NCBI RefSeq assembly: GCF_008369915.1
Contig: NZ_VSRN01000001.1
Location: 3,220,501 to 3,284,500 of the forward strand
Source: Dyadobacter sp. UC 10
GTDB taxonomy: Bacteria > Bacteroidota > Bacteroidia > Cytophagales > Spirosomataceae
Reading direction: 5' to 3'
Length of the DNA: 64,000 nt
Position 1 is the stretch's first letter, and the number at the start of each line of letters is the position of its first letter. The translations under genes were made by a program, and so were the position numbers. Below, piece after piece: positions 23,942 to 30,670 of this stretch. The notes under the pieces are model-generated. The model had not been told where the DNA came from. It worked only from the letters and a program-made list of their open reading frames with translations, and did not search any database.

Positions 23942-24577
23942 ATGTTAAAAACAAGACAACTGCTTCTCATTTGCTGCGCCATTCTATTCGTCAATTCCGC
24001 GTTCCTGGCGACGCAGGAAAACGGTGATCCACAGGTGAAAAAACCTGTTAAGCTATTTAATGGAAAAGATTTGAGCGGCTGGAAAATCAATGGTACCGAA
24101 AAATGGTATGTCGAAAAAGGCGAGCTGGTTTGCGAAAGCGGACCCGACAAACAATATGGTTATCTGACCACCGACAAATTTTACAAAAACTTCGACCTTT
24201 CGCTGCAGTTCAAACAGGAGGCAAATGGAAATAGCGGCGTTTTCTTCCGTTCGACGGTCGACGGTACCAAAGTTTCCGGCTGGCAGGTAGAGGTAGCCCC
24301 ACCAAATCACGACACCGGTGGCATTTACGAATCATATGGCCGCAACTGGCTCGTTCAGATCCCGGAAGAAAAGGAAGGTTTCCTGAAAATGGGCGAATGG
24401 AACACGTTGCGGATCCGAGCGGTAGGCGACAAAGTGCAGACCTGGCTGAATGGTAATGCAATGGTCGATCTGGATGATGCGAAGATCGGTGCAGGAAATG
24501 GTTCGATCGCATTGCAGATTCACGATGGCGGTGGTATAAAGGTGCGCTGGAAAAATATCATGCTGGAAGAGCTGTAA
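23942..24577 (+). CDS. DUF1080 secreted protein (3-keto-disaccharide hydrolase-like)
   Basis: A 211-residue secreted protein with a signal peptide (about 1-22) and one jelly-roll domain of the DUF1080 family: LFNGKDLSGWKINGTEKWYVEKGELV, LTTDKFYKNFDLSLQFK, NSGVFFRSTVDG, GGIYESYGRNW, WNTLRIRAVGDKVQTWLNG and GSIALQIHDGGGIKVRWKNI. DUF1080 members act on 3-keto-sugars or related carbohydrates, and Bacteroidota carry many. The ATG at 23942 gives the signal peptide; the open frame extends further upstream over the divergent gene. No sugar-related neighbours are present. Confidence 0.9.
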   Translation: MLKTRQLLLICCAILFVNSAFLATQENGDPQVKKPVKLFNGKDLSGWKINGTEKWYVEKGELVCESGPDKQYGYLTTDKFYKNFDLSLQFKQEANGNSGVFFRSTVDGTKVSGWQVEVAPPNHDTGGIYESYGRNWLVQIPEEKEGFLKMGEWNTLRIRAVGDKVQTWLNGNAMVDLDDAKIGAGNGSIALQIHDGGGIKVRWKNIMLEEL

Positions 24578-24649
24578 GCTTTTTCATTCCTGTGCCGGTG
24601 GGATTCATTCCGCCTAGCTGACAGTTCGTCGGAAATACCTAACAAACAG

Positions 24650-24710
24650 GCTTCATGGAAAATAGATTTGTGTCAATTATAACGCAATCTGTTAGCCATG
24701 AAGCTTTTTT
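24650..24710 (+). terminator. Possible terminator after the DUF1080 gene
   Basis: GCTTCATGG (24650-24658) and its complement CCATGAAGC (24696-24704) are 37 bases apart and followed by six T. The large loop makes this weaker than the other terminators of the window. Confidence 0.4.
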
Positions 24711-24773
24711 ATGTGTCATCAGCTCATCGGGACATAATAGTAAGCCAAACCTATACGAACAAAAGGGTTATGT

Positions 24774-26222
24774 ATGAACGAGAAAAGAACAAAGACGCTG
24801 CGTATGACTGCCGCATCGCTTGACGGCAGGGATTTTAGCAACATGGATCTGGAAAATGCCGATTTTAGCTTTTCGAGCTTAAAGGACATCAATTTCGACG
24901 GGGCTAATCTTCGCAACGCTAAACTTCGTTTTTCAGCCCTTGACCGAACCACATTCCGAAATGCGGATCTGCGAAATGCGGATCTTAGTTTCAGTAGCCT
25001 TTGCGATGTTGATTTGAGCGGAGCAAAAGTAGAGGGCGCTAATTTTAGTTTCACTTCACAGGAAAAATCCTTTAACTGGCAGGATTTCAGTCTGATAGCT
25101 ATTATTCAGAGCCAAAGCTGGATCGGCACCCTGGCAGCGGCTTTTCTGGGTGCAGTAGTCTTGTATGGCTTTAATGCAATAGCCTATTTTACAGCCGAGC
25201 TGTCCTTCACCGAAGAGCCCGTCCGTCTGGCTTTTTACAAATACCTGGTAGTCCTCAATATAGCTACCGGTGTGTTTACAATCCTTGTTACTCAGGGGCT
25301 CACAACCTGGCTCGATTTCATTATCAAGAGCCTGCTTGCCAAACACCTGATCCTTTCGATCACGGTGTTTTTGTTTGATACCCTGCTGGCACTGGGTATA
25401 CACCATTTGTTTGCAACCCATATTGTAAGCGAGTATGTGATGCAATATCCGGACGAACCCTCGCAAAATGCGCCCTGGTACTGGTATGCCTGGGTACCGG
25501 TGGCGATTGCCAATGTTTTTTACTTCTTAAGAAGGAAAGGCCAGCAACTCTCCCGAAAGATCTCTGATCAGGAATATCAATTGTTGAATCTCGAAAAGCT
25601 TAAAACACGTGCCGAGCTGGACGCCTTGCAGGCGCGTATCAACCCTCACTTTCTTTATAATTCATTGAACAGCATTGCCAGCCTGGTACATGAAGATCCC
25701 GACAAGGCGGAGGAAATGACATTGCTGCTTTCCAAATTGTTCAGGTACACAACCGGCCGGAAAACGAACGATTATTTTGACACAATAGAAAACGAGCTGG
25801 AAATGGTGGAAACCTACCTGCAGGTAGAGAAAGTGCGTTTCGGGACAAGGCTGAGGTTTAGCGTTGAAGTAATGAAGGAAGAATTGAGGCAATTACAGGT
25901 TCCCAAATTTATTTTGCAACCTATTGTGGAGAATGCGATCAAGCACGGTATTTCGCATATGGCGGAGGAAGGAAATATTGTGGTTAGGATATATGAAGAA
26001 GAATCCTGGCTGCATCTTTGCGTACACGATAACGGTCCGGCATTCCCCGAAACAATGGGAGCCGGCTACGGGATCAGGAGTATTCAGGATAAATTGAAAC
26101 TGCTTTATGGCGACAATGCCCGGCTTGAACTCCACAATGAGCCCAGCAAGACCGTCAATATTGCGATCCAAAAATCAGTAATGGGACAACACCAAAATTT
26201 TAGTCATGCAGTTTCCTCTTAA
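24774..26222 (+). CDS. LytS-type sensor histidine kinase with N-terminal pentapeptide repeats
   Basis: A 482-residue kinase with an unusual layout. Residues 21-95 are fifteen consecutive pentapeptide repeats with Leu/Phe/Val at the first position (LENAD, LRNAK, FRNAD, LRNAD, LSGAK and so on). Then come about four membrane helices (roughly 107-139, 155-180, 188-216, 236-252), a linker coiled coil, and the His_kinase domain with phospho-accepting H292 in RINPHFLYNSLNS, N-box VENAIKHG (N387), HDNGP and GYGIRSIQDKL. It would phosphorylate the LytTR regulator encoded next, with which it overlaps by 17 bases. The repeats lie on the cytoplasmic N-terminus. The ligand or partner is unknown. Confidence 0.9.
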   Translation: MNEKRTKTLRMTAASLDGRDFSNMDLENADFSFSSLKDINFDGANLRNAKLRFSALDRTTFRNADLRNADLSFSSLCDVDLSGAKVEGANFSFTSQEKSFNWQDFSLIAIIQSQSWIGTLAAAFLGAVVLYGFNAIAYFTAELSFTEEPVRLAFYKYLVVLNIATGVFTILVTQGLTTWLDFIIKSLLAKHLILSITVFLFDTLLALGIHHLFATHIVSEYVMQYPDEPSQNAPWYWYAWVPVAIANVFYFLRRKGQQLSRKISDQEYQLLNLEKLKTRAELDALQARINPHFLYNSLNSIASLVHEDPDKAEEMTLLLSKLFRYTTGRKTNDYFDTIENELEMVETYLQVEKVRFGTRLRFSVEVMKEELRQLQVPKFILQPIVENAIKHGISHMAEEGNIVVRIYEEESWLHLCVHDNGPAFPETMGAGYGIRSIQDKLKLLYGDNARLELHNEPSKTVNIAIQKSVMGQHQNFSHAVSS

Positions 26223-26988
26223 AACCATATTGATCGACGATGAGCCGCTGGCATTAAGCCGTTTGCGAAGATTGCTGGACAAGCATTCGGACGTTTTTAA
26301 TATTGTTTCCGAAGCAAAAAATGGAGCGGAAGGTTTGATCGAGATCAACAGGCACAGCCCGGATGTTATTTTTCTGGATATTGAAATGCCGCTTCTGAAT
26401 GGTTTTGAAATGCTTTCCAAACTCACCAAAATGCCGCTTGTTGTATTTTCAACGGCTTACGATCAATATGCGATCAGGGCTTTTGAAGAGAATTCAGTTG
26501 ACTATCTTTTAAAACCTGTTGAAAATGACAGGCTGCTTAAAACGATCGACAAGATCCGGAATATTACCAAAGCGGGGACGAGCAGCACAGGAAATGTGAA
26601 CCCGTACTCCGAGAACCTGCTGAGGTTACTGGAAGAAATGAAGCCTAAAAAGGAAATATTTTCACTTTCAGTCAAATCGGGCGATCGGATTTTGCTGATC
26701 CCGATGACAGAAATTACCCATTTTGAAGCGGAAGAAAAATATGTGTTCCTCAATACGCTGGACGGACAGAAATACCTTCTCAATTACACTCTGACTTCAC
26801 TTGAAGAAAAGCTTCCCAAGCATTATCTGCGCATCAGCAGAGCAGGCATCGTCAACTCCCATCATATCAAAGAAATCCAGAAGCATTTCAATGGAAAGTA
26901 TGTGATCGTACTACGTGACCGAAAGGCTTCACAGGTTACGAGCGGCAGCACTTACGGGGATGCGATACGTCATCTTCTTGATAATTAA
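26206..26988 (+). CDS. LytTR-family response regulator
   Basis: A 260-residue regulator. Residues 1-120 form a receiver: ILIDDEPLALSRL (D11, D12), phosphoacceptor D58 in VIFLDIEMP, STAYD and DYLLKPV. Residues 150-258 form a LytTR DNA-binding domain (FSLSVKSGDRILLIPMTEITHFEAEEKYVFL, LPKHYLRISRAGIVNSHHI). LytTR regulators bind direct repeats upstream of target genes. The start lies inside the end of the kinase gene, so the pair is translationally coupled. Confidence 0.93.
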   Translation: MQFPLKTILIDDEPLALSRLRRLLDKHSDVFNIVSEAKNGAEGLIEINRHSPDVIFLDIEMPLLNGFEMLSKLTKMPLVVFSTAYDQYAIRAFEENSVDYLLKPVENDRLLKTIDKIRNITKAGTSSTGNVNPYSENLLRLLEEMKPKKEIFSLSVKSGDRILLIPMTEITHFEAEEKYVFLNTLDGQKYLLNYTLTSLEEKLPKHYLRISRAGIVNSHHIKEIQKHFNGKYVIVLRDRKASQVTSGSTYGDAIRHLLDN

Positions 26989-27307
26989 TACGCTTATCAC
27001 CATTCGTTTATTAAGAATTATTGATTTTGTATAGGCAATACTTATTCCTAAATTGCGCCCTCGTTTACAATTTTGATAAATTTCAAGCGTGTAATCTTCT
27101 GTTTATCAGTCGGTTTATTGTAATTCAGGATACAATCAAAATAGATTTTTTTCCGGATTCCGGCACAAAATCTGCTTACTCAGCGTACAGGTTATTAGTT
27201 AAGTGATTCCTGAAAGACTGAGGATGTTGATTTTTTGCCTGAATTGATAAGATCCTTTGATATTGTTCAATTGTTTTGTTAAAAAAGGTTAAAGGGAGTC
27301 AGGAGTA
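26989..27307. other. 319-base intergenic region before uppS
   Basis: AT-rich, no convincing gene: a 61-codon frame at 27021-27206 has no recognisable features. Presumably it holds the promoter of the uppS-bamA-skp operon, but no exact TAnnTTTG box was found; TTGTTTTG near 27270 has one mismatch. Confidence 0.4.
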
Positions 27308-28060
27308 ATGAAGGAGCTCATTGATGCGGGCAATCTGCCAAAGCACATCGCCGTTATCATGGACGGTAACGGAAGGTGGGCTCAAAACCAGGGCGCAGCC
27401 CGGGTTTTTGGCCATCGCAATGCAATTAAGGCAGTTAGGGAGGTGACGGAAGGCTGCGCTGAACTCGGGGTATCATGTTTGACACTCTATGCATTTTCGA
27501 CCGAGAACTGGGCCAGACCGGAGTTCGAGGTCAGGGCTCTGATGGAACTATTGGTGCAATCTATCCGGAATGAACTTCCTACAATGCTTAAGAATAAGGT
27601 GAAGCTGGACACCATTGGCGATACAGAAAGCCTGCCAAGGAGTTGTCAGCGGCAACTTGCCGAAGCTATCGAAGCCACGCGGGAAAATACCGGTCTTAAC
27701 CTGATCCTTGCTTTGGGATATAGCGGTAAATGGGACATTACCCAGGCAGCGAGAAAAATTGCAGAAGATGTTCAGAAAGGAACTTTAATTCCCGGTGAAA
27801 TCAGCGAAGAGTTGCTTTCATCCAGGCTCGCGACCGGTAACAGACCGGAAGTGGATTTGATGTTGCGTACCGGCGGCGATCACCGGATCAGTAATTTTCT
27901 TCTCTGGCAACTGGCTTATTCCGAATTGTATTTTTATGAAAATCTTTTTTGGCCTGATTTCCGTCGGGAGCATTTATATGAGGCGATCCTTTCTTATCAG
28001 AACAGGGAACGAAGATTTGGGAAAACAGGCGAACAAATAAAAGCGAATAGTGCTAAGTAG
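27308..28060 (+). CDS. uppS: Isoprenyl transferase (undecaprenyl diphosphate synthase)
   Basis: A 250-residue cis-prenyltransferase making the C55 lipid carrier for peptidoglycan and polysaccharides. Motifs: HIAVIMDGNGRWA with the Mg-binding D19, GHRNAIKAVREV, LTLYAFSTENWARP and RTGGDHRISNFLLWQLAYSELYF. In the last motif most homologues have Glu (RTGGE) where this protein has Asp, a conservative change at a Mg ligand. bamA begins six bases after the stop, so the two are co-transcribed. Confidence 0.95.
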   Translation: MKELIDAGNLPKHIAVIMDGNGRWAQNQGAARVFGHRNAIKAVREVTEGCAELGVSCLTLYAFSTENWARPEFEVRALMELLVQSIRNELPTMLKNKVKLDTIGDTESLPRSCQRQLAEAIEATRENTGLNLILALGYSGKWDITQAARKIAEDVQKGTLIPGEISEELLSSRLATGNRPEVDLMLRTGGDHRISNFLLWQLAYSELYFYENLFWPDFRREHLYEAILSYQNRERRFGKTGEQIKANSAK

Positions 28061-28066
28061 AACAAT

Positions 28067-30670
28067 ATGAACCTTCTTACCAATTTGAATAAATCATTAG
28101 CACATCTGAAATGTCTTACTGCATTGCTGCTGATCTGCTCCTGCGTATCTGTGAATGCGCAGCGGGTAGGTATCGGTGCAACTAGCCGGCCTGCCGCAGC
28201 CGCAGCCGCCAGTGTGATGGACCCCGCCAATCCGAAAGAATACACGATCGCTGAGGTAACGGTCTCGGGTACCCAGTTTCTGGACCCCAATTCCATGATA
28301 TCTATTTCAGGTTTAAAGCCAGGGGACAAAATCCGTCTTCCAGGACCTGCTATTCCCTCGTCAATCAAAAGAATGATGGACTTCGGTACTTTGGATGACG
28401 TTGAGATTTTGTACACAAAGATTGAAGCTGAAAAAATATGGCTGAACATCCATATTAAAGAAAGGCCACGTCTCTATAAGGTGTCGTTTTCAGGAATCCG
28501 CAAAGGGGAAAAAGAGACATTGAATGATAAGGTTAAGTTGATCAAAGGCCGGGTAATTACGCCGACAGTGATCAAGAATACTCAGCTCGTTATCAAAAAA
28601 TATTATATGGATAAGGGTTTTTACTACACCAAAGTAAAGGTGTTGCAAATCCCTGACTCTACCCGCGGACAGGCAACTCTTAATTTTACTATTACGAAAG
28701 GTAAAAAAGTTAAGATCCAGAAAATAAACATCGAAGGAAATACCGATATCAGTGACAAAACATTGAAGCGGAAAATGAAGGGTACAAAACAGAAAAGAAT
28801 TGGCAGGCTCTTCAACCCATCTAAATACATTCCAAAAAAATACGAGGAAGACAAGGAAAAGCTTATCGCTTTCTATCGCAAAAATGGTTACCGCGACGCT
28901 ACCATCGAATTCGATACAATCAAGAACGGGGAAGAAACCATTAGTATTGATCTCAAAATCGAGGAAGGTACCAAGTATTTCTATCGCGATATCACCTGGT
29001 CGGGCAATTATCTGTATACGTCCAAATACCTGGGTGAGCGCCTGGGTATCAAAAAGGGCGATGTATATAACCCGGAGGAGCTCGATAAAAAGATCAACGG
29101 TATTCCGGGAGGTGACGTGAGTTCGATTTACATGGACGACGGTTATCTGTATTTTCGTATTGAACCTACTGAGAAAGCTGTGGAGGGCGATTCGATAGAT
29201 GTTGAGCTTCGGATGTTTGAAGGAAAGCAGGCTACGATCAACCGGATCTTGCTGAACGGTAATACTAAAACAAGTGACAGGGTTGTTTTGCGAGAGCTTT
29301 TTACATTGCCAGGGCAAAAATTCAGCAAAACTGAAATTATCAATACGCAGCGGCAACTCTCTCAAATGGGATATTTTGACCCTGAAAAAATTCAGATCAA
29401 CCCGATTCCAAATCAGTCAGACGGCACGGTTGATATTGAATATACAGTAGAAGAAAAACCATCTGATCAAATCGAATTATCAGGAGGCTGGGGAGGTTAT
29501 ATTGGTTTTGTAGGAACTTTGGGACTTGTCTTTAATAATTTCTCCCTTAAAAACATACCGAACCGTGAAACCTGGCGGCCACTTCCTTCCGGCGACGGAC
29601 AGAAATTGTCACTCCGCTTCCAGGCGAATGGAAAACAATATCAAACCTATTCGATGTCTTTCAGCGAACCGTGGCTTGGAGGTAAAAAACCTATCAACTT
29701 TGGGGTATCTCTCCAGCGCACAGTTTATCGCCTTACCGACCCGAGCGCAATGTTCGGTATCGGCGGCCTGAACGGCGGGGGCGGGCGGCTTAGCTATCGT
29801 GGAGGATACTATAACAATGGGATAACGGTCTCATTGGGCCGTCGTTTAAAAGAGCCTGATCGTAACCTGGTTATGACACACTCATTGTCGTACCAGCGAT
29901 ATCGCCTGGATGATCTTGACATCTTTGGCATAGGATACACCAACGGTAATTCCAACAACATTTCCTTTAATACGACGATCTCGAGAAATACCCTGAGTGA
30001 TTTCCAATTCCCGAGAAACGGAAGTAATATTTCATTGAGTGCCACAGTTACTCCTCCGTATTCAGCTTTCCGGAAAAAGGAGTTTGCTGACAAAACCGAT
30101 ACTTACCGCTGGGTTGAATACCATAAATGGATGTTCGATGCGAGCTATTACGCGACCATCACAGGTAAGCTGGTATTGAGCACCCGGGCACACATGGGTT
30201 TCCTTGGGAACTATGACAAGACTGACACTTACAGTCCGTTTGGTAGGTTTATTGTCGGTGGATCAGGGCTAGCCGGACAAGGGACTTTTTCGCTCGCTGA
30301 TCAGGATATTATCGGTTTGCGCGGTTATGAGGATCAAAAAGTGGGTCCTATTACGCAACAGGGCCGGCCAGCATCTGGCGGCGGGGTTGTGTATAACAAA
30401 TATGTACTCGAGCTTCGTTATCCTGTTTCGCTTAATCCGCAAGCGACCATTTTCATCCTTGGTTTTGCTGAGGGGGGAAATAACTGGCGCAGCTATAAGG
30501 AATTTAACCCGTTCGATTTGAAAAGATCGGCTGGTGTAGGAGCGAGGATCTTTATGCCGGCATTTGGTCTTCTCGGTATCGACTGGGGTTATGGGTTTGA
30601 TAAAATTCAGGGACAATCGAAGCCAAGCGGGGCTCAGTTCCATTTTACGATCGGGCAACAAATCAGATAA
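28067..30670 (+). CDS. bamA: Outer membrane protein assembly factor BamA
   Basis: An 867-residue outer-membrane insertase. After a signal peptide (about 1-30) come several POTRA domains (about 55-480; for example YTIAEVTVSGTQFLDPN, KKVKIQKINIEGNTDISDKTLKRKMKG, KQATINRILLNGNTKTSDRVVLREL), then an Omp85 barrel with PWLGGKKPINFGVSLQRT, GRFIVGGSGLAGQGTF, LRGYEDQKVGP and a C-terminal MPAFGLLGIDWGYGFD...FTIGQQIR. BamA folds beta-barrel proteins into the outer membrane. It is followed by two Skp/OmpH-like chaperones. Confidence 0.95.
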   Translation: MNLLTNLNKSLAHLKCLTALLLICSCVSVNAQRVGIGATSRPAAAAAASVMDPANPKEYTIAEVTVSGTQFLDPNSMISISGLKPGDKIRLPGPAIPSSIKRMMDFGTLDDVEILYTKIEAEKIWLNIHIKERPRLYKVSFSGIRKGEKETLNDKVKLIKGRVITPTVIKNTQLVIKKYYMDKGFYYTKVKVLQIPDSTRGQATLNFTITKGKKVKIQKINIEGNTDISDKTLKRKMKGTKQKRIGRLFNPSKYIPKKYEEDKEKLIAFYRKNGYRDATIEFDTIKNGEETISIDLKIEEGTKYFYRDITWSGNYLYTSKYLGERLGIKKGDVYNPEELDKKINGIPGGDVSSIYMDDGYLYFRIEPTEKAVEGDSIDVELRMFEGKQATINRILLNGNTKTSDRVVLRELFTLPGQKFSKTEIINTQRQLSQMGYFDPEKIQINPIPNQSDGTVDIEYTVEEKPSDQIELSGGWGGYIGFVGTLGLVFNNFSLKNIPNRETWRPLPSGDGQKLSLRFQANGKQYQTYSMSFSEPWLGGKKPINFGVSLQRTVYRLTDPSAMFGIGGLNGGGGRLSYRGGYYNNGITVSLGRRLKEPDRNLVMTHSLSYQRYRLDDLDIFGIGYTNGNSNNISFNTTISRNTLSDFQFPRNGSNISLSATVTPPYSAFRKKEFADKTDTYRWVEYHKWMFDASYYATITGKLVLSTRAHMGFLGNYDKTDTYSPFGRFIVGGSGLAGQGTFSLADQDIIGLRGYEDQKVGPITQQGRPASGGGVVYNKYVLELRYPVSLNPQATIFILGFAEGGNNWRSYKEFNPFDLKRSAGVGARIFMPAFGLLGIDWGYGFDKIQGQSKPSGAQFHFTIGQQIR

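Follow-up and report, generated by a model that had tools for sequence, protein, structure and literature searches.

A sensor kinase bearing one rod, another rod or none among relatives of a soil bacterium suggests an exchangeable docking part

The window analyzed here, a stretch of 64,000 nucleotides from Dyadobacter sp. UC 10, encodes a LytTR-type two-component system in which the sensor kinase carries an N-terminal pentapeptide-repeat rod with a conserved aromatic stripe, or ladder, on one face. In relatives of this soil bacterium the same kinase occurs in three forms, bearing this rod, another rod or no rod; this pattern suggests that the rod is a swappable docking part. We read it as a sub-membrane docking or dimer-contact module that may tune the kinase, and give this reading a probability of about one half. 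The family offers a natural comparison, with one kinase in one kind of operon bearing the rod, another solenoid or neither. Swaps can thereby put the role of a β-solenoid on a sensor kinase to a direct test, with the conserved stripe pointing to the residues for mutation.

Domain architecture

Table 1. Features of the kinase-regulator locus (positions are those of the window)
Feature	Position	Strand	Evidence
Pentapeptide-repeat sensor histidine kinase, 482 aa	24774..26222	+	ORF call, Pfam
Pentapeptide β-helix, about residues 9-98 (16 in-register quintets at 14-93)	24798..25067	+	Pfam, model, register count
Aromatic stripe, codons of F33, F53, F73 and F93 (i+2, one face, 20-residue spacing)	24870..25052	+	Register, conservation, control
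Membrane region of four predicted TM helices with short loops (about residues 107-258)	25092..25547	+	Model, hydropathy
His_kinase (PF06580) phosphoacceptor region, H292 in NPHFLYNSLN	25611..25853	+	Pfam E 3.6e-27, residues 280-360
HATPase-type ATP-binding domain	25911..26171	+	Pfam, Foldseek
LytTR response regulator, 260 aa	26206..26988	+	ORF call; Pfam Response_reg + LytTR
Conserved 22-mer upstream of uppS, candidate promoter or regulator site	27039..27060	+	Alignment, genome search

The kinase and regulator reading frames overlap by 17 nt (Table 1). With a PF06580 kinase and an adjacent LytTR regulator, the pair belongs to the LytS-type kinase/LytTR two-component systems, and the product of the first gene is the sensor kinase of such a system. 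It shares with these systems the His_kinase domain, the HATPase domain and the adjacent regulator, and differs from LytS-type kinases in its four predicted transmembrane (TM) helices, its N-terminal pentapeptide rod and the lack of a detected LytS sensor domain. An earlier note on this DNA had called the protein a LytS-type kinase, which is apt for the kinase domain but not for the sensor domain: the LytS 5TM domain, which we take to be the Pfam family named 5TMR_LYT, was absent from the eight Pfam families matched at E≤10, a scan in which HMMER filters drop most weak matches. The solved chain nearest to the kinase domain by sequence is 6swj, named GanS. The 6.93 Mb genome contains 26 matches to the kinase protein, of which this one alone takes in the repeat. 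The best named relative among the matches listed is Dyadobacter crusticola (86% identity). Rfam at gathering scores gave no match over positions 24000-28500.

The four membrane helices proposed in the earlier note are present in the predicted model (residues 116-145, 149-183, 187-224, and from 235 onward into the linker), while simple hydropathy at a cut-off of 1.4 finds only three in the window protein. As four TM helices precede a cytoplasmic kinase, the N-terminus with its rod is probably cytoplasmic. In the linker that joins the rod to TM1 (residues 94-112) the pLDDT is below 50, and the pTM of the model is 0.40; coupling of the rod to TM1 is therefore not supported by the model.

The pentapeptide rod

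The match to PF00805 is strong (E 2.8e-16; 59.2 bits against a cut-off of 20.2). In the register in which i falls at L16, F21, L26, F31 and so on, with the repeat unit running from i-2 to i+2, the rod comprises 16 quintets at residues 14-93. The contiguous repeat reported earlier stands, while its number and limits (fifteen quintets at 21-95) do not; its quintets begin at i, two residues late. The strand pattern of the predicted model begins at residue 10. Structure prediction and the pentapeptide matches of Foldseek bear out a quadrilateral β-helix; with the whole model as query, histidine-kinase entries were among the best 50 Foldseek matches, and a second look with VIA-align led to the pentapeptide matches. 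The solved chains nearest to the rod by sequence are designed β1 solenoids, and the Pfam scan of the window protein found no match to Toastrack (PF13349).

Members of the pentapeptide superfamily have at least eight contiguous pentapeptides, and a right-handed quadrilateral β-helix; the rod has 16 quintets and, in the predicted structure, this fold. It departs from the expectation of a charged or polar i+2, since 4 of its 16 i+2 residues are Phe and are kept aromatic. A polar i+2 is a soft consensus, and failing it does not bar membership. The core of the rod is an ordinary pentapeptide core. In repeat consensus and predicted quadrilateral β-helix it resembles HetL, NP275, MfpA and Alr5209; unlike these proteins, it has a conserved i+2 aromatic ladder and is fused to a membrane kinase.

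The aromatic ladder

The 20-residue recurrence of Phe-Ser-rich quintets described in the earlier note is real, and the four aromatic i+2 residues are F33, F53, F73 and F93. The stripe is, however, not the FSFSS quintet as such. Only its second aromatic, at i+2, holds; the remainder mixes i, i+1, i+2 and the i-2 of the next quintet, with core i residues F31/L51/L71/F91 and following i-2 residues S34/S54/S74/T94. Four aromatics distributed over 16 i+2 positions would share one face in 4 of 1,820 ways.

Across 100 pentapeptide-type orthologues the one-face stripe over four coils and its period are conserved. All four positions are aromatic in 92 of the 100 (unweighted; 390 of 400 cells), while at the remaining twelve i+2 positions 4 of 1,200 cells hold an aromatic residue. 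Weighted to an effective number of 28.5 sequences, F or Y occupies the four positions in 100, 82, 95, and 96%. The other eight orthologues are without one or two of the aromatics, some lineages having lost rungs: the second rung is Ala in L068, L069, L070 and L075, and L074 and L126 retain only two rungs.

As a control, 28 pentapeptide-like runs outside these kinases were taken from 30 loci of the best PF00805 matches in the order, some of the runs being spurious frames. Aromatics occupy 59 of their 666 i+2 positions and never align on one face for more than two coils, whereas three kinase proteins within the control locus set give a same-face run of four. Two other pentapeptide proteins of the order, L300 and L309, have aromatic i+2 residues at 9 of 39 and 6 of 40 positions, with same-face alignment over at most two coils. 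The two further pentapeptide proteins found in the genome itself (L129, L130) resemble Qnr and are without the ladder, both judged by eye.

In PMC7337050, the structure-based consensus has i+2 charged or polar, and i-1 and i+1 pointing away from the axis. As the outward positions of that consensus are i-1 and i+1, the Phe residues of the stripe can only be presumed to point outward.

N-terminal types and history of the rod

A near full-length orthologue is present in 45 of 48 genomes of the genus, the window's own included, and a query of the TM region plus linker matches 145 of 222 family genomes at E≤1e-30. Sorted by N-terminus, 147 kinase loci comprise 100 with the pentapeptide rod, 21 with a GG-repeat, taken as Toastrack-like, and 26 with neither, ten of which come from other families of the order. 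Types were assigned by script from pentapeptide count, GG-motif count or neither; L074 and L126, with 10 quintets found against a cut-off of 11, were added to the pentapeptide type by hand. The Toastrack assignment is based on PF13349 matches above cut-off in five of six long orthologues scanned (L085, L091, L092, L093 and L096; not L107), on the model of an Emticicia kinase with a β-solenoid at residues 11-330 (block pLDDT 76-96), and on a weak Foldseek match to 4qrk (E 1.9e-6, TM 0.30 by target, rmsd 15.4), an entry given as a Toastrack example in PMC11237479.

Homologues with a non-repeat N-terminus, which the earlier note had named as counting against its reading, do exist in the form of bare (Larkinella) and Toastrack homologues, while the pentapeptide-type orthologues keep the period. 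For this reason the repeat is best seen as an optional module, for which a single gain is the simplest account. A quick maximum-likelihood tree was built from the TM-kinase regions (114 of the 147 kinases, genus rows thinned, midpoint root, with a long-branch warning). In it the 67 pentapeptide rows fall within a single group of 70 (SH-aLRT 98), and the nearest rows outside it, G221 and then Larkinella and G220, are all bare. Of the 21 Toastrack rows, 20 form one group together with the bare row L097; L096 lies beside it on a long branch, its place uncertain. The rod would most simply have been gained once, on a bare four-TM kinase, in an ancestor within the Spirosomaceae.

Three bare rows lie inside the pentapeptide group: L101, L156 and L173. 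L101 and L173 have no full rod. In L156 (L156:2227-3722; the same gene as L221) a pentapeptide solenoid, and in L097 (L097:1343-3674) a Toastrack-like one, is encoded in a frame of its own that shares about 13-16 nt with the kinase frame; these are therefore broken or split genes rather than clean losses, whether by frameshift, assembly error or natural division into two proteins. In Larkinella L222 the frame of a small upstream gene ends where the kinase frame starts, so no rod is hidden there. Outside the family, each of the matches listed starts at query residue 100 or beyond (order, 390 genomes, E≤1e-45; class, 395 genomes, E≤1e-42). The two samples overlap, and scoring took in the four best candidates of each genome; the scans concern relatives of this kinase, not pentapeptide fusions of unrelated kinases.

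Gene neighborhood

Of 60 loci tested (L068-L127), 57 have the LytTR regulator next to the kinase; the exceptions L074, L081 and L126 all belong to the genus of Runella zeae. In five kinase-less genomes tested, one of them 81% complete, the regulator had no match at E≤1e-60. Upstream of the kinase, many relatives encode a protein of about 730 aa with CarboxypepD_reg-like and TonB Plug domains, and one of about 215 aa that looks secreted by eye and gave a TPR match, weak and below cut-off, in one of three scanned. The counts that follow take in genes on the strand of the kinase that lie no more than 1.8 kb (small protein) or 2.6 kb (receptor) from its frame, and are lower bounds where the flank is short. 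The small TPR-like protein precedes at least 58 of 100 pentapeptide, 14 of 16 bare family, 12 of 21 Toastrack and 7 of 10 order loci. For the TonB-type receptor, many flanks being short, the corresponding figures are at least 51 of 100, 6 of 16, 4 of 21, and 6 of 10. All three N-terminal types therefore share one operon type, consisting of TonB-type receptor, small TPR-like protein, kinase and LytTR regulator. At E≤1e-6 a profile of the small protein matches 132 of 222 family genomes and finds nothing in the genome of the window.

Several Toastrack loci have an extra gene upstream of the kinase, placed between it and the small-protein gene (L242:4292-4867, L241:4196-4771, L234:4301-4867); its product of about 190 aa looks membrane-like by eye, and the two scanned (L242, L234) had no Pfam match. 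In Runella zeae (L219:3881-8242) the pentapeptide kinase is preceded by a SpoIIM-family protein and a protein without assignment, and followed by a pseudouridine synthase, not a response regulator. The same genome has a second kinase, of Toastrack type, with its own regulator.

Proposed mechanism and alternatives

The starting point would have been a bare four-TM kinase whose gene lay with those of a TonB-type receptor and a small TPR-like protein, and which then gained a rod at its cytoplasmic N-terminus. The rod would stand beneath the membrane just before TM1, with the four-rung aromatic ladder forming one corner. This ladder may serve as a protein contact surface, most simply from rod to rod across the kinase dimer or toward a partner docked on the rod, and the contact could fix how the two TM1 helices lie relative to each other, thereby biasing autophosphorylation and LytTR output. 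The earlier note had likewise suggested a binding or interaction face that feeds into the kinase. A contact module is the most economical reading, since kinases of this class work as dimers, a hydrophobic stripe left unburied carries a cost, and in relatives Toastrack takes the place of the rod. Toastrack itself has been proposed, in PMC11237479, as a scaffold for sub-membrane signaling complexes. Against a contact module stand the low-confidence linker, the loss of rungs in some lineages and the persistence of bare kinases. Bare orthologues lie beside intact-looking TPR-like and regulator genes, so the kinase can do without a solenoid.

A more specific version, which we put forward tentatively, treats unrelated β-solenoids as regulatory caps that can replace one another functionally on one lineage of four-TM LytS-type kinases and the pentapeptide form as an aromatic zipper. 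The two rods of a dimer might join along F33/F53/F73/F93, or open to dock a partner, and thereby set the geometry of TM1. We know of no description of such a zipper mode of signaling for pentapeptide proteins.

It is rather unlikely that the rod is instead a passive stabilizing or spacing cap, in which stacked corner rings stabilize a short helix and contact nothing else. Stacking at a 20-residue period would be a natural stabilizer, bare kinases exist, and the ladder is complete in the window protein although its genome has no match to the small TPR-like protein. However, other pentapeptide proteins of the order manage without a ladder, as the control runs show, and i+2 is otherwise polar in solved structures (PMC7337050).

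More doubtful is a role for the rod as a membrane-state sensor, its stripe lying against the inner membrane surface or the segment leading into TM1, and the rod reacting to lipid or envelope stress. Only a few residues separate the end of the rod from TM1, and in the window protein they include Phe and Trp; Toastrack is tied to envelope stress in PMC11237479. In the window the kinase-regulator pair precedes uppS (PF01255), a gene for a POTRA (BamA-like) protein and two for OmpH-like proteins, and uppS also follows in Dyadobacter, in certain further pentapeptide genera and at three of the four Larkinella loci (L223 being the exception). Yet the orientation that such a sensor would need is without support from the model at residues 94-112, and the Spirosoma and Fibrisoma loci examined showed no neighboring uppS, nor did those of Fibrella, Runella or the Toastrack type. 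Lastly, a Qnr/MfpA-like DNA mimic, putatively binding gyrase and reporting topological stress, is very improbable and was rejected, as no NCBIfam Qnr or MfpA model reached its cut-off (QnrC, the best of the Qnr type, 22.3 bits against 500; MfpA 19.5 against 360), the conserved stripe is aromatic rather than acidic, and MfpA is about twice as long as the rod.

Relation to known systems

The component parts are already known. In PMC11237479, the Toastrack (DUF4097) proteins of PSP/Lia systems and the HAAS proteins likewise tie an intracellular β-solenoid to a TM signaling module, and the same two solenoids alternate, HAAS proteins carrying either Toastrack or pentapeptide repeats. This is an independent case of the solenoid alternation seen on the kinases. 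The modules named there are HAAS, PspC or LiaI-LiaF-TM, whereas here, in Cytophagales, the solenoid is fused directly to a LytS-type kinase. HglK of Nostoc/Anabaena also combines four predicted TM regions with a pentapeptide domain, of 36 pentapeptides, but its repeat is C-terminal, the excerpt of PMC8145042 names no kinase, and the protein is tied to heterocyst glycolipid localization. According to the same paper, a biochemical function is known for few pentapeptide proteins. Among the open-access literature matches listed, with subscription journals mostly outside, none reports the direct fusion, the conserved i+2 ladder or unrelated solenoids on one kinase lineage.

Sequence upstream of uppS

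Among 11 aligned Dyadobacter and Telluribacter sequences, none differs by more than one base in the 22-mer between the regulator gene and uppS. A role as a regulon site was rejected: the genome has no second copy of the 22-mer at up to three mismatches, and no regulon can therefore be read from it. A second conserved block, rich in A, lies immediately before the uppS start.
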